The notes under the pieces are model-generated. The model did not search any database, was not told the origin of the DNA, and worked only from the letters and a program-made list of their open reading frames with translations. 60,539 nucleotides of DNA, taken from Rhodanobacteraceae bacterium. GTDB taxonomy: Bacteria; Acidobacteriota; Terriglobia; Terriglobales; Acidobacteriaceae. Position numbers and translations under genes: made by a program. Positions 382 to 58,606 of the stretch are shown piece after piece; within the stretch, counting starts at the first letter, position 1; each line of letters starts with the position of its first letter. The stretch is taken from assembly GCA_025350865.1 (NCBI GenBank), contig JANXWZ010000098.1, positions 1-60,539 on the forward strand. Direction: 5' to 3'.

Positions 382-422
382 CGGTCCGTCATCCTGGCGA
401 AGCCAGAATCTCCGTAGTTGTC
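382..422 (+). repeat. Family A palindromic repeat, copy A1
   Basis: Core TCCTGGC, loop GAA, GCCAGAA (392-408), followed by TCTCCGTAGTTGTC. It fills the gap between two convergent genes, starting 4 bp after the HD gene's stop and touching the last stop base of the DUF3592-like gene. Confidence 0.8.
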
Positions 423-781
423 TACCGGCACCCACGCAAAATCGCCAACCAAACCAGCGACAGCACCACCGACCCAACAATCCCGACCGCAACCAGAGGC
501 GGCTTCCCATCTCCCTCTCGGGTCCCTACCACGCCCCGGTCCCGGCTATTCTCTTCCGGCCTCAGCGGGTTGTAGCTCACAGAAATCCGCTCATCCTGCG
601 CGACCGCCACCGCCGACTGAAACTCCCCCGAGTACAGCCGCCCATGCGCGTAGTAATCGAATGTAATCCGAAACTTCTCCTGCCGCGAGAAGCCGAACGC
701 CATGTTCCCCAGACCCGCGAACTGGAACCTGCAGGTGGTTACGGTCGCTTGCGTCTCAATCCACGGCACGGGTCCGGACAT
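422..781 (-). CDS. DUF3592-like small membrane protein
   Basis: 119 residues. The first about 85 residues form a beta-rich soluble part (FRITFDYYAHGRLYSGEF, then DERISVSYNPLRPEENS) and the C-terminus is one hydrophobic helix (VAVGIVGSVVLSLVWLAIL). The pattern 'Y.v.G..Y.g......vg..v.V.YnP.nP' is what DUF3592 proteins show. A relative lies about 1.3 kb away at 2032-2349. No enzymatic motif is present; function unknown. The stop codon overlaps the edge of repeat A1. It ends 6 bp before the stop of the VOC gene's frame region and is probably a separate unit. Confidence 0.6.
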   Translation of the reverse strand: MSGPVPWIETQATVTTCRFQFAGLGNMAFGFSRQEKFRITFDYYAHGRLYSGEFQSAVAVAQDERISVSYNPLRPEENSRDRGVVGTREGDGKPPLVAVGIVGSVVLSLVWLAILRGCR

Positions 782-787
782 ACTGTA

Positions 788-1285
788 TTAGACGCCCTCA
801 TCTGCTGCATCGAGCAGCGTCTGCAAATCCAGCCCGCGCGTATACATCGCCAGCGCCCCATCCGCCGTCCGGGGCCACTCCGCCTCCGGCCGATCCCAGT
901 ACAGTTCGACGCCATTTTCATCCGGGTCGCGCAGATACAGCGCCTTGCTCACGCCGTGGTCCGAGGCCCCATCCAGCAGAATCTTCGCCGCGATCAGCCG
1001 CTTCAAAGCATCGCCCAGCGCAGCCTCCGTCGGATACAGCAGCGCCACATGGTACAGCCCGGTCGTCCCTGCAGCCGGCGGTTTCCCGCCCAGGCTCTCC
1101 CACGTATTCAACCCGATATGATGGTGATATCCGCCCGCCGAAACGAACGCTGCCGAATCCCCAAACTTCAACTGCAACTCCAGCCCCAGCACACCGCAAT
1201 AGAAGTCCAGTGCCCGCTGCAGGTCGGCAACCTTCAAATGAACATGCCCGATGCGGGCTCCGGGATGGATCGCTTTCGTACTCAT
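788..1285 (-). CDS. VOC-family (glyoxalase / catechol 2,3-dioxygenase-like) protein
   Basis: 165 residues from ATG at 1283-1285. It has two VOC modules: IGHVHLKVADLQRALDFYCGVLGL near the N-terminus and YHVALLYPTEAALGDALKRL in the middle, ending in the metal-site segment DPDENGVELYWDRP. Paired His (HVH, YHV) and Glu (VELYW) fit a single divalent metal site as in CatE/extradiol dioxygenase-like proteins. The frame is open 41 codons further upstream, but that extension (ILRFFATLRMT) is a translated palindromic repeat, so the inner ATG was chosen. Substrate unknown. Confidence 0.75.
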   Translation of the reverse strand: MSTKAIHPGARIGHVHLKVADLQRALDFYCGVLGLELQLKFGDSAAFVSAGGYHHHIGLNTWESLGGKPPAAGTTGLYHVALLYPTEAALGDALKRLIAAKILLDGASDHGVSKALYLRDPDENGVELYWDRPEAEWPRTADGALAMYTRGLDLQTLLDAADEGV

Positions 1286-1340
1286 GTAGATTCGATGTCG
1301 GTCAACCGCAAAAGTACCGACCAGATCATCCACCCCCCCC

Positions 1341-1380
1341 GAGGTCATTCTGAGCGTAGCGAAGAATCTCAGTATTTCGT
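1341..1380 (+). repeat. Divergent family A/B-like repeat
   Basis: GTCATTCTGAGCG, TAGC, GAAGAATCTCAGTATTTCG resembles family A (TCATTCTGGCG...AGAATCTCCGTA) with altered arms. Read on the minus strand it encodes the peptide ILRFFATLRMT, the false extension of the VOC gene. Same orientation as the other repeats. Confidence 0.65.
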
Positions 1381-1394
1381 TTTTGCTTTTACGC

Positions 1395-2024
1395 TCATGC
1401 CACCACATCCGCCGCCGTCACCCGCGGAATCCCCGCCCCCGCAAAGGCCTCATTCGTCCCATCCACCGACCCCGGCAAACCAACCGCCCGCGTCGCATCC
1501 TCAATCACGATCGTCTCAAACCCCAGCGCCTTCCCGTCGATCGCCGAGAACCGCACGCAGTAGTCATACGCCAACCCGGCAATAAACAGCCGCTGCAACC
1601 CACGCTCCCGCAGATACCCCGCCAACCCCGTCGGCGTCTTGTGGTCGTTCTCCAGAAACGCCGAGTAGCTATCGATCTCGCGACGAAACCCCTTGCGCAG
1701 AATCAACTCGGCATGAGGCACATCCAGCGCTGGATGCACCGCCGCCCCCGCCGAGTGCTGCAGGCAATGATCCGGCCAAAGCGTCTGCGGCCCATATGCC
1801 ACCTCAATCTGTCCAAACGGAGCCTGCCCCGCGTGCGAACTCGCAAACGAGATATGCCCCTCCGGATGCCAGTCCTGCGTCAGGATTACATGCTCAAACC
1901 TCGCCGCCAGCCCGTTGATCAGCGGAAGAATCTCATCGCCGCCAGCGACTGCAAGCGCCCCACCCGGCATGAAGTCCGGCTGCAGGTCGATCAGCAGAAG
2001 CGCGTCGGTGGGTCGAGTGGTCAT
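1395..2024 (-). CDS. pncA: Nicotinamidase (nicotinamide to nicotinate)
   Basis: 209 residues of the isochorismatase-like cysteine hydrolase fold. The catalytic triad is visible: Asp13 in LLIDLQPDF, Lys111 in ILRKGF and Cys156 in YDYCVRFS. Metal ligands are Asp51, His53 and probably His57 or His87 (TQDWHPEGH and WPDHCLQ). Spacing of Asp, Lys and Cys matches PncA closely. The enzyme would feed nicotinamide into NAD salvage as nicotinic acid in the cytoplasm. The gene stands between the VOC gene and a DUF3592-like gene on the same strand, with an 8 bp gap to the latter's stop. Confident call. Confidence 0.9.
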   Translation of the reverse strand: MTTRPTDALLLIDLQPDFMPGGALAVAGGDEILPLINGLAARFEHVILTQDWHPEGHISFASSHAGQAPFGQIEVAYGPQTLWPDHCLQHSAGAAVHPALDVPHAELILRKGFRREIDSYSAFLENDHKTPTGLAGYLRERGLQRLFIAGLAYDYCVRFSAIDGKALGFETIVIEDATRAVGLPGSVDGTNEAFAGAGIPRVTAADVVA

Positions 2025-2031
2025 TTTTCCA

Positions 2032-2349
2032 TTATCTATTCAACGCGAATAAACCAATTACACCTGCCGCCAAAATCCCGGCGATTGCAAACACAAACGG
2101 CAAACCATGTTGGTATATGAAGTCGAAATCCGGGTAAATGCTAATGTTTGGATCGGATGGGCAATATAGGACCTCCACGGTATCATCCTTTTTCCAACTT
2201 GAAGGATCGTAGTCGGAGCCAACCGGAGCCGAAAATTCCCCTTCATAAATATGGCCGTCGATCCAGAACGTATAAATAACGTCCAGATGAGCGGGACTAT
2301 TTCTTGTACCTGAATGGAACTCAGTCGAGCACACGCAAGCTGTGGTCAT
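2032..2349 (-). CDS. DUF3592-like small membrane protein, second copy
   Basis: 105 residues: a soluble beta-rich part (DVIYTFWIDGHIYEGEFSAPVG, then DDTVEVLYCPSDPNISI) and one C-terminal transmembrane helix (FVFAIAGILAAGVIGLFAL). It shares the layout and the 'YEGEF...V.Y.P..P' signature with the protein at 422-781, so the two are probably paralogues. The start at 2349 is the first ATG; a later start is possible. It sits just upstream of pncA on the same strand and may be co-transcribed. Function unknown. Confidence 0.5.
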   Translation of the reverse strand: MTTACVCSTEFHSGTRNSPAHLDVIYTFWIDGHIYEGEFSAPVGSDYDPSSWKKDDTVEVLYCPSDPNISIYPDFDFIYQHGLPFVFAIAGILAAGVIGLFALNR

Positions 2350-2487
2350 GGGCCAGCATGCCTACCGACATAGCGGGTTCTCAGTCTTTCGAACATGACA
2401 GAGTATCCCACGTCTGCTCTTGCACAACGCCACGTAGTGCGAAGGGACAGCGAAAGCGGTATCGTGGACCAGCAGAGGGAATCCAAG

Positions 2488-4840: not shown

Positions 4841-4951
4841 AACGTTCCGCGTGATCGCCTCCCGAAATAATTTCGTCGAAAACACCAGCAAAATCGCATG
4901 TCAATACCCCAACCCACCTAACTCATAGCAAACAAAAGGAAGATAGGTTGC

Positions 4952-4987
4952 ATGTTCACTATGCTCAACCTGTTATTCTTTAAATAG
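4952..4987 (+). CDS. Candidate 11-codon leader peptide upstream of HMG-CoA lyase
   Basis: ATG 4952 to TAG 4987 encodes MFTMLNLLFFK. AGGAAG lies 9 nt upstream (4937-4942). Three of eleven codons are leucine (CTC, CTG, TTA) and a terminator-like hairpin begins 11 nt after the stop. The arrangement resembles a transcription-attenuation leader, but so short a frame can arise by chance. Confidence 0.25.
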   Translation: MFTMLNLLFFK

Positions 4988-4998
4988 GGATAAAAGAG

Positions 4999-9120: not shown

Positions 9121-11614
9121 TCGGCATCCCCGGCGGAGCCTCCACCGGCTTCACCGGCACAAACTTCGTCGGATCCCTCTGGAACTCGTTGATCCGCTCG
9201 ATCATCGCCGCGCGGTGAATCGCCTCCGCTGAATCCGTCGGAGGAGGCGTTGTCGTCCACGCCTTCAACAAATCATTGATATGCGACCGCGCAATCGCCC
9301 TCGCCTGGCTGGATGCCGCCGGGTTGACCGCGAGCCCAAACATCGACTCCAGCCCGCGAAACTCAACCGCCCGTTCCACCTCCGACGACATCGTATGCCC
9401 GCCGTCGATCCGCTCCGCCGTCGTCTTCGACACGGCCTCCATGATCTCGCGCAGCGAAGGCGACGAGGGCGGCGTCCGCATGTGGTACTGAATCACCCGC
9501 GACGCCCGCGCCGGATCGAACAGCACCTGCAGCGTCAGGTCCGCGGCCGATTCTGCGGTCGCAATCGGATCAAAGGTCAGTCCAGTTTCTGAGGGGAACG
9601 ACTCCTGGGACTTCCGCAGCCCCGGCGGTCGCGGCGGCATGATACGGAGTAGCGCCTCGGGAATCGTCAGGGTATCCGGAGCAAGTGTCTTCAGCACCGC
9701 CGCCAGCGCCCGCTTCTGATCCGCGTTGGCTACGATGGTCGGCATCGGCTGCCCATCCCCGCGCAGGTTGTACCGGTAATCCAGGCCGCCGATCATCTTG
9801 ATCGCTGCCTCTGCCTGGTAGCGGTGCAGAAGGTAAAGTGGCACCAGGACATCCTCCATTTTGGCTAATGGTTCGCCGGCTTTGATTGAGTTTTCTCCGA
9901 ATTGCGCCAGCGCCGCAGTCCGAACGGTCAGAATTCGCTCCAGCTCAGCGGCTGGGTCCGAACCGTTATCCCAGAGGTGCGCGTAGGGATGCGCGCTGCC
10001 AAAAGGACGCGAATCCTCGTCCGTGATGTAACGCAGCCCCGCCTTTTCGCTGTCGGACAGAATCTTGTTCAACTCCGCGTGCTCGTCGGTCTTTGACGCG
10101 AAGTCGCGGTAACCGTAGTTGATCGCGACCTTGTCCCATACCCCGATGTTCACCGGGTAGGCGTGCGACAGATCCGGCACCCCATTCTTATCCAGCGTTA
10201 CCCACGGATGCGGATACTCCATCACCGAGGTCGTCTCGTCCACGCCGTGCGGCAGGATGCTTGCGACATAGTTGTGGGACAGCCCAAGCGTATGGCCGGT
10301 CTCGTGCGCCGCCAGTTGGCGAATGCGCTGCAGCACCATCGCCAGCATAGGATCGTTCGCCGGGGTGAACGTCTTACCCTGCACGTAAGGCGAGAGCAGC
10401 GCTTCGGCGATCATGTAATCCTGCCGCCCGCGCAGGCTTCCCAGCGTCACATTGCCCTTGATGATCTCGCCGGTCCTTGGATCGGTGATCGCCGCGCCGT
10501 AGCTCCAGCCGCGCGTGTAGCGATGCACCCACTGGATCATGTTGAAGCGGATGTCCATCGGGTCTGCACCCGCAGGCAGCATATCCGCCTTGAACGTTCC
10601 CGGAGCCCAGCCCGCCGCCTGGAACGCCTGATCCCACCACCGCGCGCCCTCCAGCAGAGCTGTCCGCACCGGCTCCGCAGCCCCGGTATCGACGTAATAC
10701 TGAATCGGCGTCACCGCAACGCAAGACTTGGTGCAGCTTGGGTCCTTCTTCACCAGGCGATGCCGGATGATGAACTGCTGGTCCAGATTCGCGCCCAGCG
10801 GAGCCGAATAATCGCGGTACGAGGAAGGGAAGTAGCCTGCCCTCGGATCGAAGCGGCGGGGCGTAAAGCCCGGCGGCGGCAGCTCCAGAAACGATTGGTG
10901 TTCATGGATCGTCATCGCATGGGCGTCCGGCGTAACCTCCGCTACATACGACCTCCGCCCCGACGGCGCCTCCGACACAAAAGTCAGGGCAGCCTCGACC
11001 TCTGTGTTCTTCGGGAAAGCTTTGGTCGACTCCAGATCGATCGTCGAACGCATCGGATCGACCCGATACACACCCTGCTGCGCCCTGGTCAGGGTCGTCG
11101 CTACTTCGTGTGCATCGCGCAGGAAGAATTCCGTAGCATCGACCAGAACCGCGCCATCGGATTGTCCGGCAACCACAAAGCCTGCCAGAACAGAGGTCGG
11201 GAAGGACGTCTTGACGGCCAGCTGCTCCGGCGCTTCGGTCGCCGACGAGCGGAACATCTCGTTCTGCTCTACGAGCAGAATCTTGGGGCCTGTCCGCTCA
11301 AAACGCACTACCTTTCCACCCGATGTCTGCCCACGATCCAGCCCGAGATCGTTCGAGCCCGTGCCCCACGGCAGCGAGTTCGTGTAGAGCATCTCCGCGC
11401 TGTTGCCCTTGGCATCCAGCGGAATTTCCAGATACAGTTTGCCCGCCGTCGCATCCCAATGCAGCGGGAGCAGGCCCGGCATGTTGGTCATGGATGCTGT
11501 CTTGGCGGCAATAGTGGGGATCCCGGCTGGTTCAGGACGCTGAGCTGCAACAGACGCAGCAGAAAGCAGGGTGAGCGTGAAAATAATCGCTGGGCGCATG
11601 GTCTTTTTTACCAT
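9098..11614 (-). CDS. Secreted zinc-dependent metalloprotease (metzincin, DUF5117/DUF4953 type)
   Basis: 838 residues. An N-terminal signal peptide (MRPAIIFTLTLLSAASVAAQ) follows the first five residues. The zinc site is HETGHTLGLSHN near residues 435-446 (HExxHxxGxxH), with a downstream Met-turn TSVMEYPHPW. N-terminal beta-rich region contains RRFDPRAGYFPSSY and ALLEGARWWDQAFQAAG, wording typical of the large bacterial 'zinc-dependent metalloprotease' family. Likely periplasmic or exported; substrate unknown. Single-gene unit or first gene before Uma2, 21 bp downstream of the glycosyltransferase stop region. Confidence 0.85.
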   Translation of the reverse strand: MVKKTMRPAIIFTLTLLSAASVAAQRPEPAGIPTIAAKTASMTNMPGLLPLHWDATAGKLYLEIPLDAKGNSAEMLYTNSLPWGTGSNDLGLDRGQTSGGKVVRFERTGPKILLVEQNEMFRSSATEAPEQLAVKTSFPTSVLAGFVVAGQSDGAVLVDATEFFLRDAHEVATTLTRAQQGVYRVDPMRSTIDLESTKAFPKNTEVEAALTFVSEAPSGRRSYVAEVTPDAHAMTIHEHQSFLELPPPGFTPRRFDPRAGYFPSSYRDYSAPLGANLDQQFIIRHRLVKKDPSCTKSCVAVTPIQYYVDTGAAEPVRTALLEGARWWDQAFQAAGWAPGTFKADMLPAGADPMDIRFNMIQWVHRYTRGWSYGAAITDPRTGEIIKGNVTLGSLRGRQDYMIAEALLSPYVQGKTFTPANDPMLAMVLQRIRQLAAHETGHTLGLSHNYVASILPHGVDETTSVMEYPHPWVTLDKNGVPDLSHAYPVNIGVWDKVAINYGYRDFASKTDEHAELNKILSDSEKAGLRYITDEDSRPFGSAHPYAHLWDNGSDPAAELERILTVRTAALAQFGENSIKAGEPLAKMEDVLVPLYLLHRYQAEAAIKMIGGLDYRYNLRGDGQPMPTIVANADQKRALAAVLKTLAPDTLTIPEALLRIMPPRPPGLRKSQESFPSETGLTFDPIATAESAADLTLQVLFDPARASRVIQYHMRTPPSSPSLREIMEAVSKTTAERIDGGHTMSSEVERAVEFRGLESMFGLAVNPAASSQARAIARSHINDLLKAWTTTPPPTDSAEAIHRAAMIERINEFQRDPTKFVPVKPVEAPPGMPIGDDEEM

Positions 11615-11635: not shown

Positions 11636-12433
11636 CTACTCGGCCACCGGCTTCGCATCGCGAGCCGCGTACCATGCCTTCGAATACTTCCAGCTCACAT
11701 AGGTCGAGTGGTACAGATGCAGCAGCAAACCCTCGCGCCCATCCAGCCACCCAAACCGCACAATGTAGTTGTAGAAGAAGCTCAGATGCGGAACGACCAG
11801 CACGTTCCAGTAAAACGCCAGGTGCGATCGGCTCGTTCTGCCCTGGTCGACCAGCAGTTGCGCGCCCAGCGTGGAGTACCGGTCCATATGTTCCAGGTAA
11901 TCTTCGAGCGTCGGATAGGCATGGTGGATCAGGTCAAAATCCAGCTTTGCCGATTCGCCGTCGAACACGATCGTCTCGTGTACCGGACGCTCTTCAAAGT
12001 GCGGCTGCTGCGAGAAGTTCGCCGCCCGGCGCCGGAACAGTCGCAGCTTTGGGTCGGGGTAGTAGCCGCCGCGCTTGATCCAGCGGCCCAGAAACAGGTT
12101 CCGGCGATTGATAAAATAAGCATCCGCCGGCGGGTTTGTCGGCAGCAGCAACTGAAGCTGCTTCGCCAATTCGGGCGACATCTCTTCATCCGCGTCCAGT
12201 GACAGAACCCAGTCGCCCGAGCACTGCGCAATCGCGAAGTTCTTCTGCGCGGCAAATCCCGGCCATTCGCGCACAAAAACCTTCGCGCCAAACGACTCCG
12301 CAATCGCCACCGTCCGATCCTTCGAGCCGGAATCGACCACGATAACCTCGTCGGCGAAGCCAACGCTGGCCAGCGTCCGCGGCAGGTTCCGTTCTTCGTC
12401 GCAGGTGATGATCGCTACTGAGAGCAAAGGCAT
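11636..12433 (-). CDS. Family 2 glycosyltransferase, WaaE/KdtX-like
   Basis: 265 residues. GT-A fold motifs: LSVAIITCDEERNLPRTLASVGFADEVIVVDSGSKDRT at the start, then AQKNFAIAQCSGDWVLSLDADEEMSPEL containing the DxD motif, and a C-terminal segment rich in aromatic residues (LAFYWNVLVVPHLSFFYNYIVRFGWLDGREGLLLHLYHSTYVSWKYSK, seen as an amphipathic membrane-near part). This pattern fits WaaE-type beta-glucosyltransferases of lipopolysaccharide core assembly. It acts at the cytoplasmic face of the inner membrane. The acceptor is not known. Confidence 0.82.
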   Translation of the reverse strand: MPLLSVAIITCDEERNLPRTLASVGFADEVIVVDSGSKDRTVAIAESFGAKVFVREWPGFAAQKNFAIAQCSGDWVLSLDADEEMSPELAKQLQLLLPTNPPADAYFINRRNLFLGRWIKRGGYYPDPKLRLFRRRAANFSQQPHFEERPVHETIVFDGESAKLDFDLIHHAYPTLEDYLEHMDRYSTLGAQLLVDQGRTSRSHLAFYWNVLVVPHLSFFYNYIVRFGWLDGREGLLLHLYHSTYVSWKYSKAWYAARDAKPVAE

Positions 12434-12643
12434 AATGGGCCGTCTCGTGGAAAGTTGGGATAATTCCGTTGGCCCAGGGAGTTCGTGCTAAGACCCGCAG
12501 ACACACGACGGTTCCAGCATTCGCAGCGAACAAAATTCCGGTCAACGCATGTCCCCCCAGTCTACCGTGCGAGAGGAATGTTCGAACAGGATTTTTCGCG
12601 TCTTTCCAACGCCAGTAATGGCGATTATCGGAGCTGAACCGCA

Positions 12644-12979
12644 TTATTGGAGCTGAATCGAAGGATCGTCCAGTTGTTCCCGCAACAGGCGCGTCGTCAG
12701 CGCCGTCAGCGTCTCACCGGTCTTGGCCAGAACGAACGCCCCCCCCGCCTCATCCCAGTCCAGCTTGAAGCTAGTCGTCCGAGCCGAAATCCAGACCTGC
12801 CGTACCGGAGTCTGCGGCGTAAAAACAAACTTCGTGCCGCCATCTTCAAACAGCACATTCAGCACGCCGTTGTTGTCTTCGGCCTCGAACCCGCCATCTT
12901 CCTCAGCGGCAATCAGCGACTGCTTCAAGGCTTCGAGCGCGCTGTCGGAAACACGGCGGAAGGTGGCTTCATCAATCAT
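12644..12979 (-). CDS. cyaY: Frataxin-like iron donor protein CyaY
   Basis: 111 residues. The frataxin pattern is evident: an acidic N-terminal helix (MIDEATFRRVSDSALEALKQSLIAAEEDGG), then GVLNVLFEDGGTKFVFTPQTPVRQVWISARTTSFKLDWDEAGGAFVLAKTGETL. The 'NGGVL...FE.G...V.N.Q.P..Q.W.A...G...F' backbone of CyaY is conserved. It would bind iron and regulate Fe-S cluster assembly. The stop codon lies in a short duplicated stretch (12630-12660), so the C-terminus may have been altered recently. No isc genes are nearby. Confidence 0.75.
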   Translation of the reverse strand: MIDEATFRRVSDSALEALKQSLIAAEEDGGFEAEDNNGVLNVLFEDGGTKFVFTPQTPVRQVWISARTTSFKLDWDEAGGAFVLAKTGETLTALTTRLLREQLDDPSIQLQ

Positions 12980-13001
12980 ACAATCAGTCTACTAGGCTCG
13001 G

Positions 13002-13523
13002 CTACCAATCCAGCATCTCCTTCACGCGAGCCCAATCAATCGAACATGGGCTGTCGGGAAGTTGTTCGATCTCGGTATCGACTGGCACCAGCGTGCCATT
13101 CTCGAAACGCGATATCTCTTTGGACTTAGGCTGGATTACGCGGATGGTACGGATTCCCATCGCCTCGTAGTCGGCCAGCTTGATCATCATCCTCGACATC
13201 CGATCTTCCGGCGACAACACCTCGAAGATCGCAATCGGCGTATGAGTCAGAATTTGTTCCGTCGGCCGCGACCGGTCCCATACCACCACATCGGGAATGC
13301 GATACCGAGTCGGACTAACCTGAACGCGCAACTCCTGCCGAACCCGAACATTCCATTCGGGCCCGTGGTTCATAAACCACATCTGAATCGCCGTCTGCCA
13401 ACTGGTGTGGTCAAACTCGCCCATCGGCCTCAACTCAATCTCGCCGTCAACGTAGTCGGCATCCGGCTCGAATTCATCGGAGAGCCGAAGGTACAGTTCA
13501 ACCGGCATCAAGGTTGCGGGCAT
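13002..13523 (-). CDS. Uma2-family (PD-(D/E)XK-like) protein
   Basis: 173 residues, intact. It starts MPATLMPVELYLRLSDEFEPDADYVDGEIELRPMGEFDH and keeps the family core: RYRIPDVVVWD (Asp), IAIFEVLSPEDRMSRMMIKLADYEAMGIRTIRVIQP (Glu, then Lys). All candidate catalytic residues of the endonuclease-like fold are present, unlike the copy at 8506-9120. Uma2 genes are often numerous in Acidobacteria and Cyanobacteria; function is not established. Stands alone between cyaY and ssb on the same strand. Confidence 0.8.
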   Translation of the reverse strand: MPATLMPVELYLRLSDEFEPDADYVDGEIELRPMGEFDHTSWQTAIQMWFMNHGPEWNVRVRQELRVQVSPTRYRIPDVVVWDRSRPTEQILTHTPIAIFEVLSPEDRMSRMMIKLADYEAMGIRTIRVIQPKSKEISRFENGTLVPVDTEIEQLPDSPCSIDWARVKEMLDW

Positions 13524-14973: not shown

Positions 14974-15040
14974 CCACCGCCGTCATTCTGGCGGAGCCAG
15001 AATCTCCGTAGTTGTCTTTCTGGGCGGCACACTTTCACAA
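14974..15040 (+). repeat. Family A palindromic repeat, copy A2 (extended)
   Basis: TTCTGGC, loop GGA, GCCAGAA (14986-15002) with the flank TCTCCGTAGTTGTCTTTCTG and a degenerate tail GGCGGCACACTTTCACAAAATT. It lies between the DUF420 start and the ctaB stop. Confidence 0.8.
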
Positions 15041-17792: not shown

Positions 17793-17829
17793 GGGTGCCC
17801 CATTCATCGCGCTTCTGCGATGAGTGGGA
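17793..17829 (+). repeat. Family D variable-stem hairpin, copy D0
   Basis: GGGTGCCCCATTCATCGC, loop GCTTCT, GCGATGAGTGGG: a 12 bp stem (17799-17828) with one G.T pair. The flank GGGTGCCCCAT matches copies D1-D4 while the arms differ; the loop GCTTCT is the same as in family B. Confidence 0.7.
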
Positions 17830-29880: not shown

Positions 29881-29935
29881 ACCGCCGTCATTCTGGCAAA
29901 GCCAGAATCTCCGTAGTTGTCTTTCTGCTGGCAAC
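29881..29935 (+). repeat. Family A palindromic repeat, copy A3
   Basis: TTCTGGC, loop AAA, GCCAGAA (29891-29907), then TCTCCGTAGTTGTCTTTCTG. A partial copy (CCGTCATTCC) precedes it at 29871-29880. It lies between the barrel gene and the SurA-like gene. Confidence 0.8.
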
Positions 29936-29945: not shown

Positions 29946-29994
29946 CGTCATCCCGTCTGATTTTGTTGTCATCCCGTAGGGATCTGCTTCTGTC
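29946..29994 (+). repeat. Family C repeat, copy C1 (plus a fragment)
   Basis: GTCATCCCGTAGGGATCTGCTTCTG at 29968-29992 with a truncated GTCATCCCGT copy 20 bp before. Short hairpin ATCCC/GGGAT. It directly follows A3, forming an A-C composite. Confidence 0.7.
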
Positions 29995-35231: not shown

Positions 35232-35304
35232 ACCACCGCCGTCATTCCGGCGAAGCCAGAATCTCCGTATTTGTCTTTCAGGCAGCAGCACACCTTCGCA
35301 AGAT
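35232..35304 (+). repeat. Family A palindromic repeat, copy A4 (extended)
   Basis: TTCCGGC, loop GAA, GCCAGAA (35243-35259), then TCTCCGTATTTGTCTTTCAG and tail GGCAGCAGCACACCTTCGCA. It follows the tamB stop by about 17 bp. Confidence 0.8.
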
Positions 35305-35310
35305 TTTATT

Positions 35311-35338
35311 TGTCATCCCGCAGTGATCTGCTTCTGCA
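35311..35338 (+). repeat. Family C repeat, copy C2
   Basis: TGTCATCCCGCAGTGATCTG followed by CTTCTG. Directly after A4, as C1 follows A3. Confidence 0.7.
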
Positions 35339-35339
35339 C

Positions 35340-40416: not shown

Positions 40417-40466
40417 CCGTCCGGGTGCCCCATCTCAAACAGTTTCATCGTTTGAGGTGGGGTAAA
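40417..40466 (+). repeat. Family D variable-stem hairpin, copy D1
   Basis: CCGGGTGCCCC flank, arms CCCCATCTCAAAC (40428-40440) and GTTTGAGGTGGGG (40450-40462), loop AGTTTCATC. 13 bp stem with one T.G pair. It is 3 bp after lon's stop and could end that transcript. Confidence 0.75.
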
Positions 40467-40779: not shown

Positions 40780-41206
40780 GATCCTCGACGAAATCCTGCC
40801 CGTAGCTGAAGTGATCGAACAGATCAAGGCTGGCTCCGACGGCGCCGTCTGCACCTTCGAGGGCATCGTCCGCAACCAAACCCGCGACCGCCAGACCCTC
40901 CATCTCGACTACGAATCCTACCGCGACATGGCCCTCAGCCAGATGCAAACCCTCGCCACCGAAGCCCTCGTCAAATTCAAAATCCGCGACGTAGCCATCC
41001 TCCACCGCCTCGGTCGCCTCCACGTGGGCGAGACCAGCGTCCTCATCGTCGTAGTCTCCGCCCACCGCGGCCCTGCCTTCGACGCCTGCCGCTGGCTGAT
41101 CGACACCCTCAAAAAGCAAGTCCCCATATGGAAGAAAGAGACCTTCGTCGATGGAGCCGTTTGGGCCGACGGCGAACCCTTCCCCGAAGCCATCGCCTTA
41201 ACCTGA
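40769..41206 (+). CDS. moaE: Molybdopterin synthase catalytic subunit MoaE
   Basis: 145 residues. GSDGAVCTFEGIVRNQTRDRQTLHLDYESYRDMALSQM, DVAILHRLGRLHVGETSVLIVVVSAHRGPAFDACRWLIDTLKKQVPIWKKETFVDG. The catalytic lysines of the KKQVPIWKKE segment and the R..H..G loop are present. Converts precursor Z (cPMP) to molybdopterin with sulfur from MoaD. Overlaps moaD in another frame, so the two are translated together in the expected ratio. Confidence 0.95.
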   Translation: MRIEILDEILPVAEVIEQIKAGSDGAVCTFEGIVRNQTRDRQTLHLDYESYRDMALSQMQTLATEALVKFKIRDVAILHRLGRLHVGETSVLIVVVSAHRGPAFDACRWLIDTLKKQVPIWKKETFVDGAVWADGEPFPEAIALT

Positions 41207-41254
41207 TAGCTGTCAGCTCGAAAGCTGTCAGCTCATAATTCTTGCCTTTAGCTG
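41206..41254 (+). repeat. Family E repeat, copy E1
   Basis: Two direct copies of AGCTGTCAGCTC separated by GAA, and a third AGCTGTCT at 41250. Follows moaE's stop immediately. Confidence 0.55.
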
Positions 41255-42322: not shown

Positions 42323-42352
42323 GTTTGTCATCCCGCAGGGATCTGCTTTTTA
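42323..42352 (+). repeat. Family C repeat, copy C3
   Basis: TTTGTCATCCCGCAGGGATC then TGCTTTT. Here C precedes A5, the reverse order of the other two composites, with both still in the same direction. Confidence 0.7.
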
Positions 42353-42385: not shown

Positions 42386-42430
42386 CCGCCGTCATTCCGG
42401 CGCAGCCGGAATCTCCGTATTTGCCTTTTG
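42386..42430 (+). repeat. Family A palindromic repeat, copy A5
   Basis: TTCCGGC, loop GCA, GCCGGAA (42394-42410), then TCTCCGTATTTGCC. Both arms have changed together relative to A1 (T to C and A to G), keeping the pairing. The rest of the 366 bp gap 42294-42659 is C/T-rich and holds no gene I can support. Confidence 0.75.
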
Positions 42431-45800: not shown

Positions 45801-45857
45801 ATCATCCTGAGCGGAGTTTGTCGCGCTTCTGCGACAAACGCAGTCGAAGGATCCCGA
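45801..45857 (+). repeat. Family B palindromic repeat, copy B1
   Basis: CATCCTGAGCGGA, arms GTTTGTCGC (45816-45824) and GCGACAAAC (45831-45839) with loop GCTTCT, then GCAGTCGAAGGATCCCGA. Outer TCCT...AGGA also pair. Followed 29 bp later by D2, a B-D composite. Confidence 0.8.
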
Positions 45858-45885: not shown

Positions 45886-45935
45886 CATCCGGGTGCCCCA
45901 TGTTCGACCAGCCTCACCGGTCGACCATGGGGTTA
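45886..45935 (+). repeat. Family D variable-stem hairpin, copy D2
   Basis: TCCGGGTGCCCC flank, arms CCCCATGTTCGACC (45896-45909) and GGTCGACCATGGGG (45919-45932), loop AGCCTCACC. 13 of 14 pairs. Arm sequence is quite unlike D1 or D4, but pairing holds. Confidence 0.75.
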
Positions 45936-46890: not shown

Positions 46891-46950
46891 AACCGTCATC
46901 CCGCGACAACCGTCGTTCTGGCGAAGCCAGAATCTCCGTAGTTGTTCTTT
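46891..46950 (+). repeat. Family A repeat, copy A6, with a family C fragment
   Basis: GTCATCCCGCGAC fragment, then TTCTGGC, loop GAA, GCCAGAA (46916-46932) and TCTCCGTAGTTGTTC. Occupies nearly all of the 78 bp gap between two co-directional genes. Confidence 0.8.
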
Positions 46951-46963: not shown

Positions 46964-47428
46964 ATGCGTAAACGCCAAGCCTCCCGAGTCCTGCTTTTCA
47001 ACCCCCAGGGCGAAATCCTCCTCGTCCGCTTCGCCATCCCCTGCGACGGCGTCGACTTCATCTTTTGGGCCACCCCCGGCGGCGAGATCGAACCCGGCGA
47101 AACCCCCACCGAAGCCATGCACCGCGAGATCGCCGAAGAACTCGGCCTCTCGCTCGCCCTCGATGGCCCTCTCTGGACCGACCACAACTGCTTCCTGCAT
47201 CAGGGCCAGATGTGTGACAACACCGATTTCTACTTCCGCGCCGACTGTCCCCGCCAAGCACCCGTCCTGATCGGCCTCACCGCAGACGAACTCAAGATCA
47301 TGAAGGAAATCCGCTGGTGGACCATGGAACAACTACAGTCCACCACCGAACAAATCTTCCCCAAAGACCTGATCGCCTGGACCCTGAATCGAACTGAATC
47401 CGCTGCCCCCAATAACCCGTCATCCTGA
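46964..47428 (+). CDS. NUDIX hydrolase
   Basis: 154 residues from ATG 46964 (a TTG at 46949 lies within repeat A6). SRVLLFNPQGEILLVRFA, FWATPGGEIEPGETPTEAMHREIAEELGL (NUDIX box GGEIEPGETPTEAMHREIAEELG complete) and a C-terminal KEIRWWTMEQL helix. Substrate unknown; the arrangement resembles small NUDIX enzymes that act on 8-oxo or modified nucleotides. The stop codon TGA and the last residues (NNPSS) come from family B repeat copy B2, so the repeat has replaced or extended the original C-terminus. Confidence 0.87.
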   Translation: MRKRQASRVLLFNPQGEILLVRFAIPCDGVDFIFWATPGGEIEPGETPTEAMHREIAEELGLSLALDGPLWTDHNCFLHQGQMCDNTDFYFRADCPRQAPVLIGLTADELKIMKEIRWWTMEQLQSTTEQIFPKDLIAWTLNRTESAAPNNPSS

Positions 47429-47475
47429 GCGAAGTTTGTCGCGCTTCTGCGACAAACGCAGTCGAAGGACCCCGA
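47419..47475 (+). repeat. Family B palindromic repeat, copy B2
   Basis: CATCCTGAGCGAA, arms GTTTGTCGC and GCGACAAAC with loop GCTTCT, then GCAGTCGAAGGACCCCGA. It overlaps the NUDIX gene's last codons and stop. Confidence 0.8.
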
Positions 47476-50487: not shown

Positions 50488-50590
50488 ACATCACCTCGGT
50501 ACATCATCAGCCAAACTAATAACCGCATTAGTCTAGCGAATAGCCTCAAGCCTTGGCAACTGCGAACGCCGCGGTCACTTGTACCTGGCT

Positions 50591-50632
50591 CATAGCTGAC
50601 AGCTTCAAAGCTGTCAGCTCACAGATGATCGC
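50591..50632 (+). repeat. Family E repeat, copy E2
   Basis: AGCTGACAGCTT, loop CAA, AGCTGTCAGCTC: an 11 bp perfect inverted repeat at 50594-50619. The rest of the 297 bp gap 50488-50784 shows a ribosome site (AGGAGA, 50773-50778) for the next gene and no other gene. Confidence 0.65.
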
Positions 50633-50784: not shown

Positions 50785-53322
50785 GTGCGCCTCACTCGCC
50801 TTGCGGTTACCGCCATCGCCCTTTACTCCTCCGCTCTCGCCCAAGCCCCATTGAAGCCCCGCCCCGTCGAGCCCACCAGCGCCTCCGAGCTCCCCATCAC
50901 CCGCGTCGCCCTCTACAAAAACGGCGTCGGCTTCTTCGAGCACGCGGGCCACGTCACCGGCGACCAGGCCGTCACCATCGACTTCACCAGCGCCCAGCTC
51001 AACGACGTCCTCCAGTCCCTTACCGCCATCGACCTCAACGGCGGCCGTATCACCGGCGCCGGCTACAACAGCACCACGCCCCTCGAAGAGCAGCTCAAAA
51101 CCCTCTCCCTCTCCCTCAACTCCACCCCCACCGACGTCGACTTCTACAACGCCATCCGCGGGGCGCGCGTCCAGCTCTCACAAGTTGGAGCCCTCCCCTT
51201 TACCGGTCGCCTCCTCTCCATCGACAACCGCGCCACCAACACCCCCGACCACCGCTTCGTCACCGTAGTCGCCGATTCCGGTCAGGTCCGCACCGTCGAA
51301 CTCACCCCCGCCGTCTCCGTCACCCTGCTCGACACCGCCCTCCACACCGACGTCACCAAGTACCTCGAACTCCTCGCCGGCAACCGCAGCCAGGGCCTCC
51401 GCCACTTGACGCTGCTGGACCGTGGCACGGGCAACCGCGACCTCCGCGTCAGCTACATTTCCGAGGTCCCAGTCTGGAAGTCCACCTACCGCATCCTCTT
51501 CACCGACCCAAAATCTTCGGGTGCCCCATCTCAATCTGCCTCATCGTCAGGTAACCGTCCGGGTGCCCCATCTCAATCGGCCTCATCGATTGAGGTGGGG
51601 GTAACGTCTGCCACCATCCAGGGTTGGTCCGTCGTCGACAACACCACCGGCACCGACTGGACCAACGTCCACCTCGACCTCATCGCCGGAGCCCCGCAAT
51701 CCTTCATCCAGCCGCTATCGATCCCCTACTACACTCGACGCCCGGAGATTGGCCTGCCCAGCGAAGCCCAGATGGCACCCCAGACGCATGACTCCGGCGA
51801 ACTCAACGGTGCGGGCGGCTCCACCATCCGAGGCATGGTGAACGATCAATCCGGAGCCGTCATCACCAACGCCACAGTCGTCGCCACCAACACGGCTACG
51901 GGCCAGCAAATCACCCGTCAGACTTCTTCCGACGGACGCTTCTCGATCCCAGTCGGCCAGCCCGGCCAATACACCCTGAACATCACCTCGCCCGGCTTCC
52001 AGACCTACATGATGCAGGGCATCGGAGTCGGAACCTCGCCCACCGGAATGCTGAACGCCCAGCTCAGTGTCGGAGCCGCAAGCGAGCAAATAACGGTCAG
52101 CGCCAACTCCGTCATGATGGAAACGCAAAGCGCATCCATGGCCGGAAAAGCACGTATATCGTCTCGTGGGCTAAGCGCTCCTGCGAAAGCCGAACGGTTT
52201 ACCGGAGGATTGGGAGGCTCGATCAGCTATGGGTATGGCCCGCCTCCCCCACCACCCGTCGCCAACTACGCCGAAGCCGCCGAGGCCTCCATCGCTCCCC
52301 AAACCAGCAACTCCGCCTTCGACGATTTCTTCCAGTACTCCCTCACCGACCCCATCACCATCCGCAAGAACGAATCCGCGATGGTCCCCATCCTCCAGGC
52401 CAAGCTCCCCGTCGAGCGCGTCACCCTCTGGTCCAGCGCGCATCCCACCGCCCTGCGCGCCCTCTGGCTCACCAACTCTTCCACCCTCACGCTCGACCGC
52501 GGCAGCTTCTCCATCGTCGAGAACGACAGCTTCGGCGGCGAGGGCCTGCTCGACCCCATCCACCCCGGCGAAAAGCGCCTCCTCTCCTACGCCGCCGACC
52601 AGGCCGTCCACGTCGACAACGCCCAGGGCGCGCAGCAGCACCGGCTCCGCTCGGTCGTCATCGCCAAGGGCATCCTCACCCAGCACTACCGCGACTCGGT
52701 CGAGCGCGACTACACCATCCGCAACGCCGCGCCCGACCCCCGCATCGTCATCGTCGAACACCGCCGCCTCGCCAACCACGACCTCGCCACCACGACCCAC
52801 TTTGCCGTCTCCGGCCAGCCCGACCTCGTCGTCAAGCCGGAAGAGACCACGCCAACCTCCTATCGTTTCCGCGTCACCATCCCCGCCGGAGTAACTGCCC
52901 ACCTCTACGTCGCCGAATCCCGCGCCTACCCCAGCACCATCGACGTCGGCTCCATGAACGACCAGCAGGTACGCGTCCTCGTGCTCGAAATGGGCAGCGA
53001 TCCCGCCATCGCCAAACAGCTCCAGCCCGTCATCGACGCCCAGCGCGTAGTCGCCGATCTGGACACCAAAAACGAAGCGCTCGGCGACAAGCTCGACAAC
53101 CTCGACAAGGAAGAGGAGCGTCAGCGCAGCAACATTGTCGCCCTCAAGGATGCCGACAAGCTCGCGCAGAAGCGCTTCACCGATCAGCTCGGCAAAATCG
53201 AAGACCAGATCCTCGTCCTGCAAAAGCAGCAGGAGACCCTCACCACGCAACTCGAAGCCGCCCAGGCCGACCTCGCCAACAAGGTCCAGGCCGTCCAATT
53301 TGACAAAACCCTCGAACCATAA
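50785..53322 (+). CDS. DUF4139-like secreted protein with inserted repeat and carboxypeptidase-regulatory domain
   Basis: 845 residues from GTG 50785, which has AGGAGA 6 nt upstream. Signal peptide (RLTRLAVTAIALYSSALAQ), then the DUF4139-type fold (LPITRVALYKNGVGFFEHAGHVTGD, LLDRGTGNRDLRVSYISEVPVWKSTYRILFTDPK). A 33-residue stretch (SSGAPSQSASSSGNRPGAPSQSASS) made from two family D repeats interrupts it near residue 245. The fold resumes (ATIQGWSVVDNTTGTDWTNVHLDL) and is again split by a CarboxypepD_reg module (GGSTIRGMVNDQSGAVITNATVVATNTATG, about residues 345-450). A C-terminal coiled coil ends it (LDNLDKEEERQRSNIVALKDADKLAQK). Function unknown. Confidence 0.82.
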   Translation: MRLTRLAVTAIALYSSALAQAPLKPRPVEPTSASELPITRVALYKNGVGFFEHAGHVTGDQAVTIDFTSAQLNDVLQSLTAIDLNGGRITGAGYNSTTPLEEQLKTLSLSLNSTPTDVDFYNAIRGARVQLSQVGALPFTGRLLSIDNRATNTPDHRFVTVVADSGQVRTVELTPAVSVTLLDTALHTDVTKYLELLAGNRSQGLRHLTLLDRGTGNRDLRVSYISEVPVWKSTYRILFTDPKSSGAPSQSASSSGNRPGAPSQSASSIEVGVTSATIQGWSVVDNTTGTDWTNVHLDLIAGAPQSFIQPLSIPYYTRRPEIGLPSEAQMAPQTHDSGELNGAGGSTIRGMVNDQSGAVITNATVVATNTATGQQITRQTSSDGRFSIPVGQPGQYTLNITSPGFQTYMMQGIGVGTSPTGMLNAQLSVGAASEQITVSANSVMMETQSASMAGKARISSRGLSAPAKAERFTGGLGGSISYGYGPPPPPPVANYAEAAEASIAPQTSNSAFDDFFQYSLTDPITIRKNESAMVPILQAKLPVERVTLWSSAHPTALRALWLTNSSTLTLDRGSFSIVENDSFGGEGLLDPIHPGEKRLLSYAADQAVHVDNAQGAQQHRLRSVVIAKGILTQHYRDSVERDYTIRNAAPDPRIVIVEHRRLANHDLATTTHFAVSGQPDLVVKPEETTPTSYRFRVTIPAGVTAHLYVAESRAYPSTIDVGSMNDQQVRVLVLEMGSDPAIAKQLQPVIDAQRVVADLDTKNEALGDKLDNLDKEEERQRSNIVALKDADKLAQKRFTDQLGKIEDQILVLQKQQETLTTQLEAAQADLANKVQAVQFDKTLEP
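51516..51606 (+). repeat. Family D repeats D3 (partial) and D4, inside a coding sequence
   Basis: D3 (51516-51554) has GGGTGCCCCATCTCAATC, then a different end. D4 (51555-51606) is complete: arms CCCCATCTCAATC (51566-51578) and GATTGAGGTGGGG (51588-51600), loop GGCCTCATC. Together they keep the reading frame of the DUF4139-like gene. Confidence 0.8.
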
Positions 53323-53328
53323 AAGAGA

Positions 53329-53372
53329 ACGTCGTCATTCTGGCGCAGCCAGAATCTCCGTATTGGTCTTCC
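53329..53372 (+). repeat. Family A palindromic repeat, copy A7
   Basis: TTCTGGC, loop GCA, GCCAGAA (53338-53354), then TCTCCGTATTGGTC. Starts 7 bp after the DUF4139-like gene's stop, between two convergent genes. Confidence 0.8.
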
Positions 53373-53406
53373 TATCCCAGCCCCAACCCTTCCGTGCACC
53401 CCGCTT

Positions 53407-55011: not shown

Positions 55012-55089
55012 GGTGGGGGATCTCCACGAACAGAATGAGGCATTCAGGGGCCGTAGGGCAAGCCCATACTGACGGGGAAACTGGTTGCC

Positions 55090-55130
55090 TTTAGCTGTGA
55101 GCTTGCAGCTCTCAAGCTTACAGCTCGAGA
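55090..55130 (+). repeat. Family E repeat, copy E3
   Basis: AGCTGTGAGCTTG, loop CAGCTCT, CAAGCTTACAGCT: 12 of 13 pairs plus a G.T. Arms differ from E2 but pairing is kept. Lies between the amidase gene and the end of the M14 gene. Confidence 0.6.
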
Positions 55131-55222
55131 ATCAAGTCTCTTTTGCCTCGAACAACGTCAAATGCGCTCTCCCTGACGCCGCCCTCCCCGCCTCGGCAGG
55201 ACAGCGTCAATATCGGGTCCAA

Positions 55223-58096
55223 TTACTTCAGCGTGGTTGCGGTAGCCGCGCCATAAAACACGCCGTTGAACAGGAACTTGAACGTAGCGTGGGGCTGTCC
55301 GCGGAACGCGACTTCCGGTCCAAGCAGCAGCACCTTGCCCTTGCCCACGTTGGCCTGCGCAATCGCAATCGAGTCGTTCAGGTACGTCTGACCCCATGCC
55401 CACCCGCTGTCCAGCAGGTTGCCGGAGCCGTACCACGCCACGCTCTGCAGACCGCGATTCGCCGCGTTCGGCTCGGCCTTGAAGGCAGGGCTGTTGTCGA
55501 AGAACACGTCCACCGACGAAGGAAGTCCATACGCCAGCGGCTGGGTGTTATCCACCTGCGCCCGCAGCAGCGAGCCCGGCACATAGAACCGTTCCGGCGG
55601 CACCGCCTGCTCCTTGCCCTTCACAATCTCCGTAACGGCATCGTGGACCGGCAGGCTCATCGACTTGTACATCCGCGACGAACTGCCGATAGCCACCACC
55701 GTTCCCCCGGCCTCAACGAAAGCCTTGATCTGCGGCAGTGTCTTATCTGCCGTGATGCGGCCCAGGTGCGAGCGGAACTCCTCGGGAATCGACTCCGGTG
55801 CCGGCTGTGCCTGGAAGCGCGGTGCATCGCCGCCAAGCTGCGGTCCGGCAGGAACCGGGGCGTTGGCCAGTGGTGCCGGTGCCGCCAGGTTCGGGAACGT
55901 GCCGTCCGGGAACACGAGGGTGTCGAAGCTGGCGTTCAGCTTGCCCGCGTCCAGCGTCTGCGGATAGATAACCGTAAACGGAAATTCAAACTGCTCGAAG
56001 AGCCAGCGCGTCCAGCCCGAAGGCATGGAGCCGCCGTAAGTGTCAGCCAGCCCGATGCGCGGAGTGTGGACCTGAAGCGCTTCGCCGGTGGGTGCAGTGG
56101 CAAGTGCGAAGGCGTTGATGCCAAGGTCCTTCGCCGCCGTTTCGATCACGTCATGCGCGGGCTTCGAGAAGGGAATCCAGAGCGCACCTGCTGCCAGTTG
56201 GGTCTCGCCCACCTTCATCGGCTGCTTCAGCCAATACACCGCCACGTTCGCCTTCAGCAGCCGATTCGTCAGGGTGTAGGCGTCGTTGTACTCGTGCGAG
56301 ACCACGTAGCCCGCAGCCTTCGCCGGACCCGCAATCGTTCCAGCCGGCGGCGCGGCCAGTTCCGTCTTGATCGCCTCGAAAGGCCCGCTGATGGTCGTCA
56401 GCATCCGGTCGGCCTTCACGCCCATCTGGTAGCTCAGCGTCCAGCCTGTGGTGTCGTACGGGCGGGTAGGCGGCGCGCCCGGATAGGCGAAGTCGTTGGG
56501 GTGATCCTGCGGCTCCATCATGTCCAGAATCTGCGGGCGGTACGATTGCGCGCAGTCGATGAACAGCGAGCCAGCGGGATAGTGTTTGCCCTCGGCATCG
56601 AACGCCGCACTGGCCCGCTGGATCGCGATCCCGGACTTCATCAGCGCATTGACGAACTTCACCGCAGTCGGAAAGTCGGGCTGATCGGATGGCAGCACAT
56701 AGCCGCGCGGATCGCGATGCGCCGGGTCATGCAGCACCGTGTCGTACAGTCCGGCAGGCAGACCCGCATTGCGCCCGCCGCCGGGGCCGGCCTCTGCGGC
56801 TGGGGCTGCACCGGCGCGTGCCCCGCGTGCCGGAACTGCCGCCGCCGCTGCCTCTTCCAGAGCGTCGATGCGCTTCGGCGTAATCGTCCAGCTATCCTTC
56901 TTGGCGTTCTCGATGGACCGCTTGCCCATCACGAACATGTCGTACAGCAGCAGGGTGCGGTTGCGCGACGCGTAGTCCAGCATCGCGCGATTGTTGGTCT
57001 GTTCATAGGCGATCGACTGCGCGTAGTGCCACGTCTGCGGAGCGATCGGGAACGGCTCGTCGCCCGTCGGAATCTGCCTCGCGGCGATCAGCGGAAGCGG
57101 CATCGGTGTAGGGCTGCCGATAATCTCAGTCAAAACGCCCGTCACATTATGGAAGTAGGTAACGGTGCGCAGACCGCCGTTGTACCAGGTGCTATAGGGC
57201 GCGGTGGACCGCATGCCCGACCCCGGCTTGCCCTCTTCGATCAGGCGCCCGTGCATCGCGCTGCCGATCTGCTCGATCTTCACCGGAATCAACGGGTCAT
57301 AGTGGAAGTTGAAGGGGTCGCGGAACGGCGGCATGAAGATCACCGTGCCCAGCGGACCAGTCTGGTGGTGGTTGTACATCAACTGCGGATACCATTCGCG
57401 AAACAGTACCCGGCTCATGTTGGTGGATTCCTTCATGTTCATCATGTAGAAGTCGCGATTGTCATCGTGGCCAATGTACTTGGCCCACAGGCGCGGCGTT
57501 GCGCTGTCGACGCGCTTCTTCGGATCGGGTTCCCGCATGTACCATTTGGCCACCAGGTCATCGCCGTCCGGATTGCAGAAGACGAACAGCGTAATGTCGT
57601 CGTTCAGAAAGCGCATCGTCTCCGCGTCGGTAAACGAGTTCAGCTCATAGATCGCCTCAACCAGCTGCGTAAATCCAACCGTCTCGGACGCATGCAGCCC
57701 ACCGTCGATCCACACCACCGACTTGCCTTCTTCCGCCAGCGCGTGGGCCTGCGCATCGGTCAGCCCGTCGGCATGCGCCAGCTTTTCGGAAATCTCCTTA
57801 TAGCGGTCCAGCTTCTTCAGGTTCTCGGGCGACGTAACGATCACCATGTACTGGTGGCGACCCTCCTCGGTCGGTCCGATGTCAACCAGCTTCATCCGGT
57901 CCGACTCGGTTGCGATCTTCTTTAGATAGGTCTCGATCTGGTCGTAGTTCGCCAGCATGTAGTCGTCACCCATGTTGAAGCCGATGACAGACTTCGGCGT
58001 GGAAACGTTGGGCCGCGGAGACTGGGCGGTGGCAATGCAACTGGAAACGGCAACGGCAAGCGACAACGAAAGACAGGACTTCAGAGTGGAGGGCAC
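55223..58096 (-). CDS. Secreted M14-like zinc carboxypeptidase family protein
   Basis: 957 residues from GTG 58094-58096 (AGGAG 8 nt upstream). Signal peptide (LKSCLSLSLAVAVSSCIATAQS). The N-terminal M14 module shows VVWIDGGLHASETVGFTQLVEAIYEL (HxSE zinc pair), FCNPDGDDLVAKWYMREPDPKKRVDS (NPDG) and PQLMYNHHQTGPLGTVIFMPP (later His ligand). A middle region with an Ala/Gly-rich linker (AAAAAVPARGARAGAAPAAEAGPGGG) and a C-terminal glutamine-amidotransferase-like part (ADKTLPQIKAFVEAGGTVVAIGSSS) follow. Probably periplasmic; substrate unknown. Confidence 0.87.
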   Translation of the reverse strand: MPSTLKSCLSLSLAVAVSSCIATAQSPRPNVSTPKSVIGFNMGDDYMLANYDQIETYLKKIATESDRMKLVDIGPTEEGRHQYMVIVTSPENLKKLDRYKEISEKLAHADGLTDAQAHALAEEGKSVVWIDGGLHASETVGFTQLVEAIYELNSFTDAETMRFLNDDITLFVFCNPDGDDLVAKWYMREPDPKKRVDSATPRLWAKYIGHDDNRDFYMMNMKESTNMSRVLFREWYPQLMYNHHQTGPLGTVIFMPPFRDPFNFHYDPLIPVKIEQIGSAMHGRLIEEGKPGSGMRSTAPYSTWYNGGLRTVTYFHNVTGVLTEIIGSPTPMPLPLIAARQIPTGDEPFPIAPQTWHYAQSIAYEQTNNRAMLDYASRNRTLLLYDMFVMGKRSIENAKKDSWTITPKRIDALEEAAAAAVPARGARAGAAPAAEAGPGGGRNAGLPAGLYDTVLHDPAHRDPRGYVLPSDQPDFPTAVKFVNALMKSGIAIQRASAAFDAEGKHYPAGSLFIDCAQSYRPQILDMMEPQDHPNDFAYPGAPPTRPYDTTGWTLSYQMGVKADRMLTTISGPFEAIKTELAAPPAGTIAGPAKAAGYVVSHEYNDAYTLTNRLLKANVAVYWLKQPMKVGETQLAAGALWIPFSKPAHDVIETAAKDLGINAFALATAPTGEALQVHTPRIGLADTYGGSMPSGWTRWLFEQFEFPFTVIYPQTLDAGKLNASFDTLVFPDGTFPNLAAPAPLANAPVPAGPQLGGDAPRFQAQPAPESIPEEFRSHLGRITADKTLPQIKAFVEAGGTVVAIGSSSRMYKSMSLPVHDAVTEIVKGKEQAVPPERFYVPGSLLRAQVDNTQPLAYGLPSSVDVFFDNSPAFKAEPNAANRGLQSVAWYGSGNLLDSGWAWGQTYLNDSIAIAQANVGKGKVLLLGPEVAFRGQPHATFKFLFNGVFYGAATATTLK

Positions 58097-58198
58097 GGTG
58101 GGAACTCCTCGAAGCTTGATGAATAGCGGGTGACTCCTACTGTAGCGCAGTCCAGGCCGTTCGGAGGATGTCGAATACAATTGAGGCGAGAGGTCACT

Positions 58199-58498
58199 AT
58201 GTCCGATGTCGTTACAGGGTTGCGGCAGGTGATTCAGGATTTGGTGGCGCCGGAGCTGAAGTCGCATACCGCAAAGTTCGAGATGCTCCAGAAGACGATT
58301 GAAGTGCAGCATCAGTCCGTCATGAAGCTGATCGAGTCTCAAGGCAAGCGGCTGGACGAGAAAATCGATTCGCTGCGTTCGGAGATGCACTCGGAATTTT
58401 CGGCGTTGCGTGCAACCAACGAAGTCGAGGTTCTGCGCCAGGTATCGCCCATCAGCGAACGGATCGCCGTGGTTGAGTCGCGGGTAAGGCAGGGCTAA
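58199..58498 (+). CDS. Small coiled-coil protein, unknown
   Basis: 99 residues from ATG 58199 (GAGAGG upstream). No signal peptide. Nearly entirely helical with heptad-like spacing: LRQVIQDLVAPELKSHTAKFEMLQKTIEVQHQSVMKLIESQGKRLDEKIDSLRSEMHSEFSALRATNEVEVLRQVSPISERIAVVESR. No family recognised. Transcribed divergently from the M14 gene (102 bp between starts). Codon use is less C-rich than neighbours, e.g. GTG, CGG and TTG appear, which might hint at different origin; weak evidence. Confidence 0.65.
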   Translation: MSDVVTGLRQVIQDLVAPELKSHTAKFEMLQKTIEVQHQSVMKLIESQGKRLDEKIDSLRSEMHSEFSALRATNEVEVLRQVSPISERIAVVESRVRQG

Positions 58499-58528
58499 AG
58501 CATTCTCCCTACAGCTATTCCGAATCCC

Positions 58529-58606
58529 CACCGCCGTCATTCTGGCGAAGCCAGAATCTCCGTAGTTGTCTTTTCTGGCGGCGGCACACCTTCGCGAAAT
58601 TCGCTC
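58529..58606 (+). repeat. Family A palindromic repeat, copy A8 (extended)
   Basis: TTCTGGC, loop GAA, GCCAGAA (58540-58556), then TCTCCGTAGTTGTCTTTTCTG and tail GGCGGCGGCACACCTTCGCGAAATT. A degraded partial copy (CCAGAATTTCCGCAGTTGCC) follows at 58623-58642. Confidence 0.8.

Follow-up and report, generated by a model that had tools for sequence, protein, structure and literature searches.

The 60,539-nucleotide (nt) stretch of DNA analysed here (the window) is contig JANXWZ010000098.1 of a Rhodanobacteraceae bacterium (assembly GCA_025350865.1), 1 of the 246 contigs (C230) of a 4,777,417-bp genome that we call G000. Its short palindromic repeats are repetitive extragenic palindromic (REP) elements, small non-autonomous hairpins that fall into two kinds: CGTC/TGTC-tagged (families A, C and F, with B related) and associated with REP-associated tyrosine transposases (RAYTs; families D and Z). 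Within each repeat family the polarity relative to the local GC skew is fixed. In families A, B, C, D and F, it is the C-rich strand on which the tag (CGTC-like or GGTG) comes first. The polarity recurs across families and species and, for family A, is independent of gene direction.

An initial annotation of the window had placed every copy of families A (8), B (2), C (3) and D (5) on the plus strand, and this was confirmed by blastn and word scans. The eight A copies are 86–100% identical over 34–37 nt (blastn). We equated the annotation's five D copies with the GGGTGCCCCAT hairpins near 17793, 40423, 45891, 51519 and 51561; a GTGCCCCA word at 11361 (+), inside a predicted gene, was not counted among them. 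On the minus strand of the window, no B, C, D or F copy turned up in the word scan, and family A matched only at its own palindromes or, weakly, over part of its length. The strand of family E carries little meaning because its palindromes are near-symmetric. A scan of the window against Rfam gave no matches at gathering scores. The repeats are located as follows.

388..423, + strand, family A REP (CGTC-like tag, 8-bp stem, 3-nt loop); blastn
14982..15018, + strand, family A REP; blastn and word scan
29887..29923, + strand, family A REP; blastn and word scan
35241..35277, + strand, family A REP; blastn
42391..42427, + strand, family A REP; blastn and word scan
46912..46945, + strand, family A REP; blastn
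53334..53370, + strand, family A REP; blastn and word scan
58536..58572, + strand, family A REP; blastn and word scan
45802..45854, + strand, family B repeat (start like F, hairpin longer); blastn
47419..47472, + strand, family B repeat; blastn and word scan
29966..29989, + strand, family C REP (TGTC-like tag, GNA loop); blastn
35309..35333, + strand, family C REP; blastn and word scan
42324..42348, + strand, family C REP; blastn and word scan
17793..17828, + strand, family D REP (GGGTG tag, CCCCAT stem; RAYT-associated family); word scan, end estimated from the hairpin
40423..40462, + strand, family D REP; word scan
45891..45932, + strand, family D REP; word scan
51518..51547, + strand, family D REP, partial; blastn
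51561..51600, + strand, family D REP; blastn and word scan
1344..1356, + strand, family F word GTCATTCTGAGCG; blastn and word scan
41203..41235, no strand, family E AGCTG palindrome (not polar, outside the argument); blastn
50589..50621, no strand, family E AGCTG palindrome; blastn
55095..55127, no strand, family E AGCTG palindrome, diverged; blastn

Every one of the window's twelve 5-kb bins has a negative GC skew. As the annotation had stated, the genes beside the A copies run both ways: by our gene predictions, four copies lie between two plus-strand genes (++), two between two minus-strand genes (--) and two between convergent genes.

In the whole of G000, family A was found at 164 sites with up to 3 mismatches, against none for the reversed pattern, and is therefore beyond chance. 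The search on both strands, which the annotation had proposed, gives 69 forward and 95 reverse sites, so that both orientations occur, and orientation tracks the local GC skew. Among the copies listed, orientation is often uniform along a contig and is mixed on contigs C25, C48, C156 and C205. We sampled 60 further stretches which, together with the window, come to 1.05 Mb, with genes called by our own finder (87% coding). Since the stretches were picked from the 100 of 164 A sites that were listed, A-bearing contigs are over-represented in the sample. In the 60 further stretches, the tagged strand of A is the C-rich one in 96 of 114 copies and, at strong skew, in 72 of 74. Agreement is 90/102 where the third-codon skew has the same sign in plus and minus genes, as it has in most stretches, so that transcription does not make the skew. 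Families D and Z are as strongly biased as the families with GNA loops. The intergenic DNA of G000 also contains a 7-nt tandem repeat (AGTTGGT type; nine stretches of aligned copies), with 12 of 16 seeds on the C-rich strand.

The same polarity was found outside this genome. At loci from other metagenome-assembled genomes, mostly of the soil bacterium Granulicella, family A agrees with the skew in 98 of 100 copies, counting loci with a measurable third-codon skew. In a relative with a chromosome of 4,309,153 bp (G031), all 47 copies of three families inside measured stretches agree. The third-codon skew flips sign many times along this finished chromosome (contig C5; L117-L136, L216-L255), as if it had been heavily rearranged, and REP polarity flips along with it. 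The annotation had proposed a switch of orientation at the terminus as a test; the switch is found at the borders of local skew blocks, while by arm position it is weak, with 86 of 140 copies agreeing (92/140 with the terminus set at 2.77 Mb; copies on small contigs, A 3/25, D 3/27 and F 2/101, and 5/101 unlisted F copies were omitted). The low agreement by position is accounted for by the scrambling of the skew blocks. Since the repeats follow these blocks, their link to replication direction would run through GC skew, which we infer stands for that direction. The link to strand asymmetry that the annotation had suggested is strongly supported in G000, in G031 and at the loci of other species.

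The sign of this relation, with the leading strand G-rich, rests on the arm skew of G031, on five motif matches and on general knowledge. In G031 dnaA lies at 1.2 kb, and the mean skew is +0.15 in the right arm and -0.10 in the left (p = 0.006); all five motif matches are on the G-rich strand. Coding sequence is not enriched overall on that strand, which carries 52.8% of it in G000 and 47.5% in G031, and rpoB was uninformative as a leading-strand marker. In G000 the skew switches in mid-contig from negative to positive, as at an origin, on C14 (L102/L103) and C156 (L161/L162). Both flip alike, so at least one of them is not the origin, and with dnaA on contig C127 neither was accepted.

The annotation had also remarked that REP-like elements usually show no such bias, which fits our control. 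We examined GTAG-headed REPs (up to 4 mismatches) in six 50-kb stretches of Escherichia coli MG1655, three per replichore, the GC skew having the expected sign. Of these REPs, 48/84 are on the leading strand (p = 0.23), with 20/31 among singletons (p = 0.15). A weak bias is possible, but nothing like the polarity in Granulicella.

The family A consensus is GCCGTC-ATTCTGGC-NNA-GCCAGAAT-CTCCGTA.TTGTCTTT, and conservation is strong over a segment that begins about 3 nt upstream of the core and ends about 37 nt past the core's first base. The tag contains GTC in essentially all copies, preceded by C in 95% of 122. The stem, ATTCTGGC/GCCAGAAT, has 8 bp, the first two being A-T pairs; the 3-nt loop is GNA in 91/122 copies and ANA in 28 more, and the tail is CTCC. 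On the tagged strand GNA loops are also found in family C (24/25) and family F (30/32 in G031, 13/17 in G000). Despite differing stems, the loops of the CGTC-like hairpins (A and C in L097-L176, F in G031) are nearly all NNA, mostly GNA. Families A and C, and F in G031, share a CGTC/TGTC tag and a stem starting with AT with the CGTC REP superfamily; in G000 the F tag is GGTC. Family A also resembles that superfamily, as described in the accessible text of Di Nocera et al. 2013 (PMC3733652; the other papers are likewise cited from accessible text), in its 8-bp stem, unpaired tail, mostly intergenic position and lack of a detected transposase. The superfamily, which "apparently lack[s] a dedicated transposase", has stems of 8–9 bp and a tag with TGTC and CCTC variants; its loops are of 4–5 nt, its tail fits CCA and most copies are inverted dimers, whereas family A has a 3-nt loop, a CTCC tail and mostly single copies; because of these differences we file A, C and F as CGTC-like. 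The accessible text names CGTC REPs from five phyla, Acidobacteriota not among them, and does not mention for them the near-absolute polarity relative to skew that we see for family A.

Family A is present in 8 of the 61 genomes searched, including G000, all of one genus; elsewhere, among the matches listed, it is mainly in contigs titled Granulicella. One A repeat is on contig CAIYRG010000023.1 (L069), labelled Alphaproteobacteria and possibly mis-binned. Close pairs are rare: 122 copies yielded 5 pairs of neighbours at most 250 bp apart, 2 of them inverted. Rare clusters comprise two inverted pairs about 78 bp apart (L114, ~12636-13250, C48) and three tandem copies with a 66-bp period (L151, ~11887-12045, C102).

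Family D has a constant GGGTG tag (CGGGTG) and variable stems, and neither D nor Z has GNA loops. Stem wobbles gave a weak signal for family D (GT 34, AC 15, p = 0.009), most D copies sharing one wobble, and none for family A (GT 9, AC 15). Of 29 Y1_Tnp loci, 11 have the D word and 11 the Z word, and at five of these loci (L094, L185, L188, L197, L199) D forms a pair pointing to the gene from both sides. All five proteins tested exceed the cut-off of the REP-associated tyrosine transposase model NF047646. In flanking such genes, D and Z resemble the RAYT-associated REPs and REPtrons described in the accessible parts of PMC2817692, PMC8266576, PMC6006769 and PMC3116915, where the tag is GTAG and not the GGTG of family D. 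Unlike the REPs of the E. coli control, dispersed D and Z copies are strongly polar relative to skew. Family A was present at none of the 29 loci, so that no RAYT partner for it was found there, and was absent from the hairpins beside eight transposase loci. A copy of GTCATYCTGAG is somewhere in the flanks of five of the 29 (L093, L183, L190, L202, L203), at none as an inverted flanking pair. At L094 (contig C103 of G000) inverted D repeats enclose a copy of a REP-associated transposase that is interrupted by an internal stop, and seven Y1 transposase-like loci (L096, L181, L184, L186, L193, L200, L202) lack both the D and the Z word, some having hairpins of their own.

The best reading of the polarity, and one that we consider fairly probable, is that the repeats spread with a specific polarity as single-stranded DNA at replication forks. 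The mobile form would be a single-stranded hairpin, joined into DNA exposed at the fork by an HUH enzyme with strand specificity (for D and Z, the RAYT), so that each family would enter with one polarity, like IS200/IS605 elements. Given a G-rich leading strand, the tagged, C-rich strand would then correspond in sequence to the lagging strand, which is made discontinuously. After an inversion the repeats would keep the polarity of their segment, and would therefore also record past replication direction. A common insertion mechanism for the families, raised by the initial annotation, is likely; its interpretation as a whole is partly supported. We infer that polarity is fixed on entry: the bias is already there among exact-consensus copies (21/24), a point for entry and against later loss that does not settle the matter. 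The orientation of IS200/IS605 elements mirrors replication direction and reflects a single-stranded, strand-specific mechanism, according to the accessible parts of PMC5371812 and PMC6006769. Our repeats may be similar in this respect; in G031 their orientation agrees with local skew in 47/47 copies and with arm position in 86/140. They differ from IS608 in being non-coding hairpins, tens of bases long.

Several observations weigh against spread at the fork. If the tag marks the active strand, then the tagged strand is opposite to the transposed strand of IS608, which is the lagging template; an IS608-type top strand would sit in that template, so either the untagged strand is active or the joining step differs. 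A folding program with standard DNA parameters found no strand difference in stability for family A. Empty sites were sought in relatives, where no match was close enough (63–75% identity). The absence of family A from the Y1_Tnp loci and the 86/140 agreement by arm position in G031 also count here. What is more, agreement with the skew is only 8/19 below a skew of 0.15, and family C agrees in 19/23 copies even at strong skew. A more specific form of the proposal can be offered tentatively: orphan CGTC-like and RAYT-associated REPs may share one route in which the tagged hairpin strand is attached to nascent lagging-strand DNA, at Okazaki 3' ends, and not inserted into the lagging template as for IS608; polarity would then record past replication, and REP-marked skew blocks would read out old inversions.

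Alternatively, both orientations could enter, and copies whose stabler hairpin is on the exposed lagging template could be deleted or selected out. The two strands may fold unequally, because GNA triloops, which are extremely stable in DNA, predominate on the tagged strand in families A, C and F; such loops give very stable DNA mini-hairpins (GCGAAGC melts at 78 °C; PMC4686876, accessible part). The tagged strand is not the one exposed as lagging template, and older copies agree slightly more often than others (51/53 versus 45/50, p = 0.26). We nevertheless regard such loss as rather unlikely, in view of the bias of exact-consensus copies, the equal bias of D and Z without GNA loops and the absence of a strand difference in folding for A.

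Selection could instead maintain the orientation of a polar functional motif. FtsK orienting polar sequences (KOPS) and Chi are motifs skewed relative to replication, and a KOPS-like or other strand-biased signal would be consistent with the strong genome-wide polarity. Unlike KOPS and Chi, the repeats comprise several unlike, lineage-specific hairpin families, each patchily distributed (A in 8/61 genomes), that share a polarity, and in G031 this polarity moves with the reversed skew blocks and not with the present arm. Such a motif is improbable. If the enzyme preferred a C-rich target, skewed DNA alone could orient the insertions; the flanks are indeed C-rich on the tagged strand, and the bias drops at weaker skew. 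A model built from the flanks, which is expected to overstate the effect, predicts ratios of only 1.3-3.0 to 1 against the 63/64 observed at strong skew, too low for target composition to be anything but a most unlikely sole cause. Orientation set by the transcription of flanking genes would suit the position of most A copies in ++, -- or convergent spacers, but is rejected for family A by the counts of plus and minus copies (19 and 24 in ++, 15 and 8 in --, 15 and 24 in convergent +-, 3 and 3 in -+ spacers; 111 of 122 copies classed) and by similar agreement with the skew in all four classes (33/39, 19/21, 30/37 and 5/6, respectively).

The repeats themselves are of known kinds. We found no report of replication-strand polarity of REPs in the literature searched, most subscription papers being outside its coverage; as far as our searches show, neither the strand polarity of the two kinds nor the occurrence of CGTC-like REPs in Acidobacteriota nor the contrast with E. 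coli has been described. The nearest precedent is the tandem REP arrays of Pseudomonas fluorescens, whose orientation is forward near 2 Mb and reverse near 4 Mb (PMC3116915, accessible part). The spread of RAYT-associated REPs is called unresolved in the accessible text of PMC8266576. Near-absolute polarity in both kinds of REP provides genomic evidence of strand-specific spread, probably at the fork, and is a constraint that any mechanism of REP spreading must explain.
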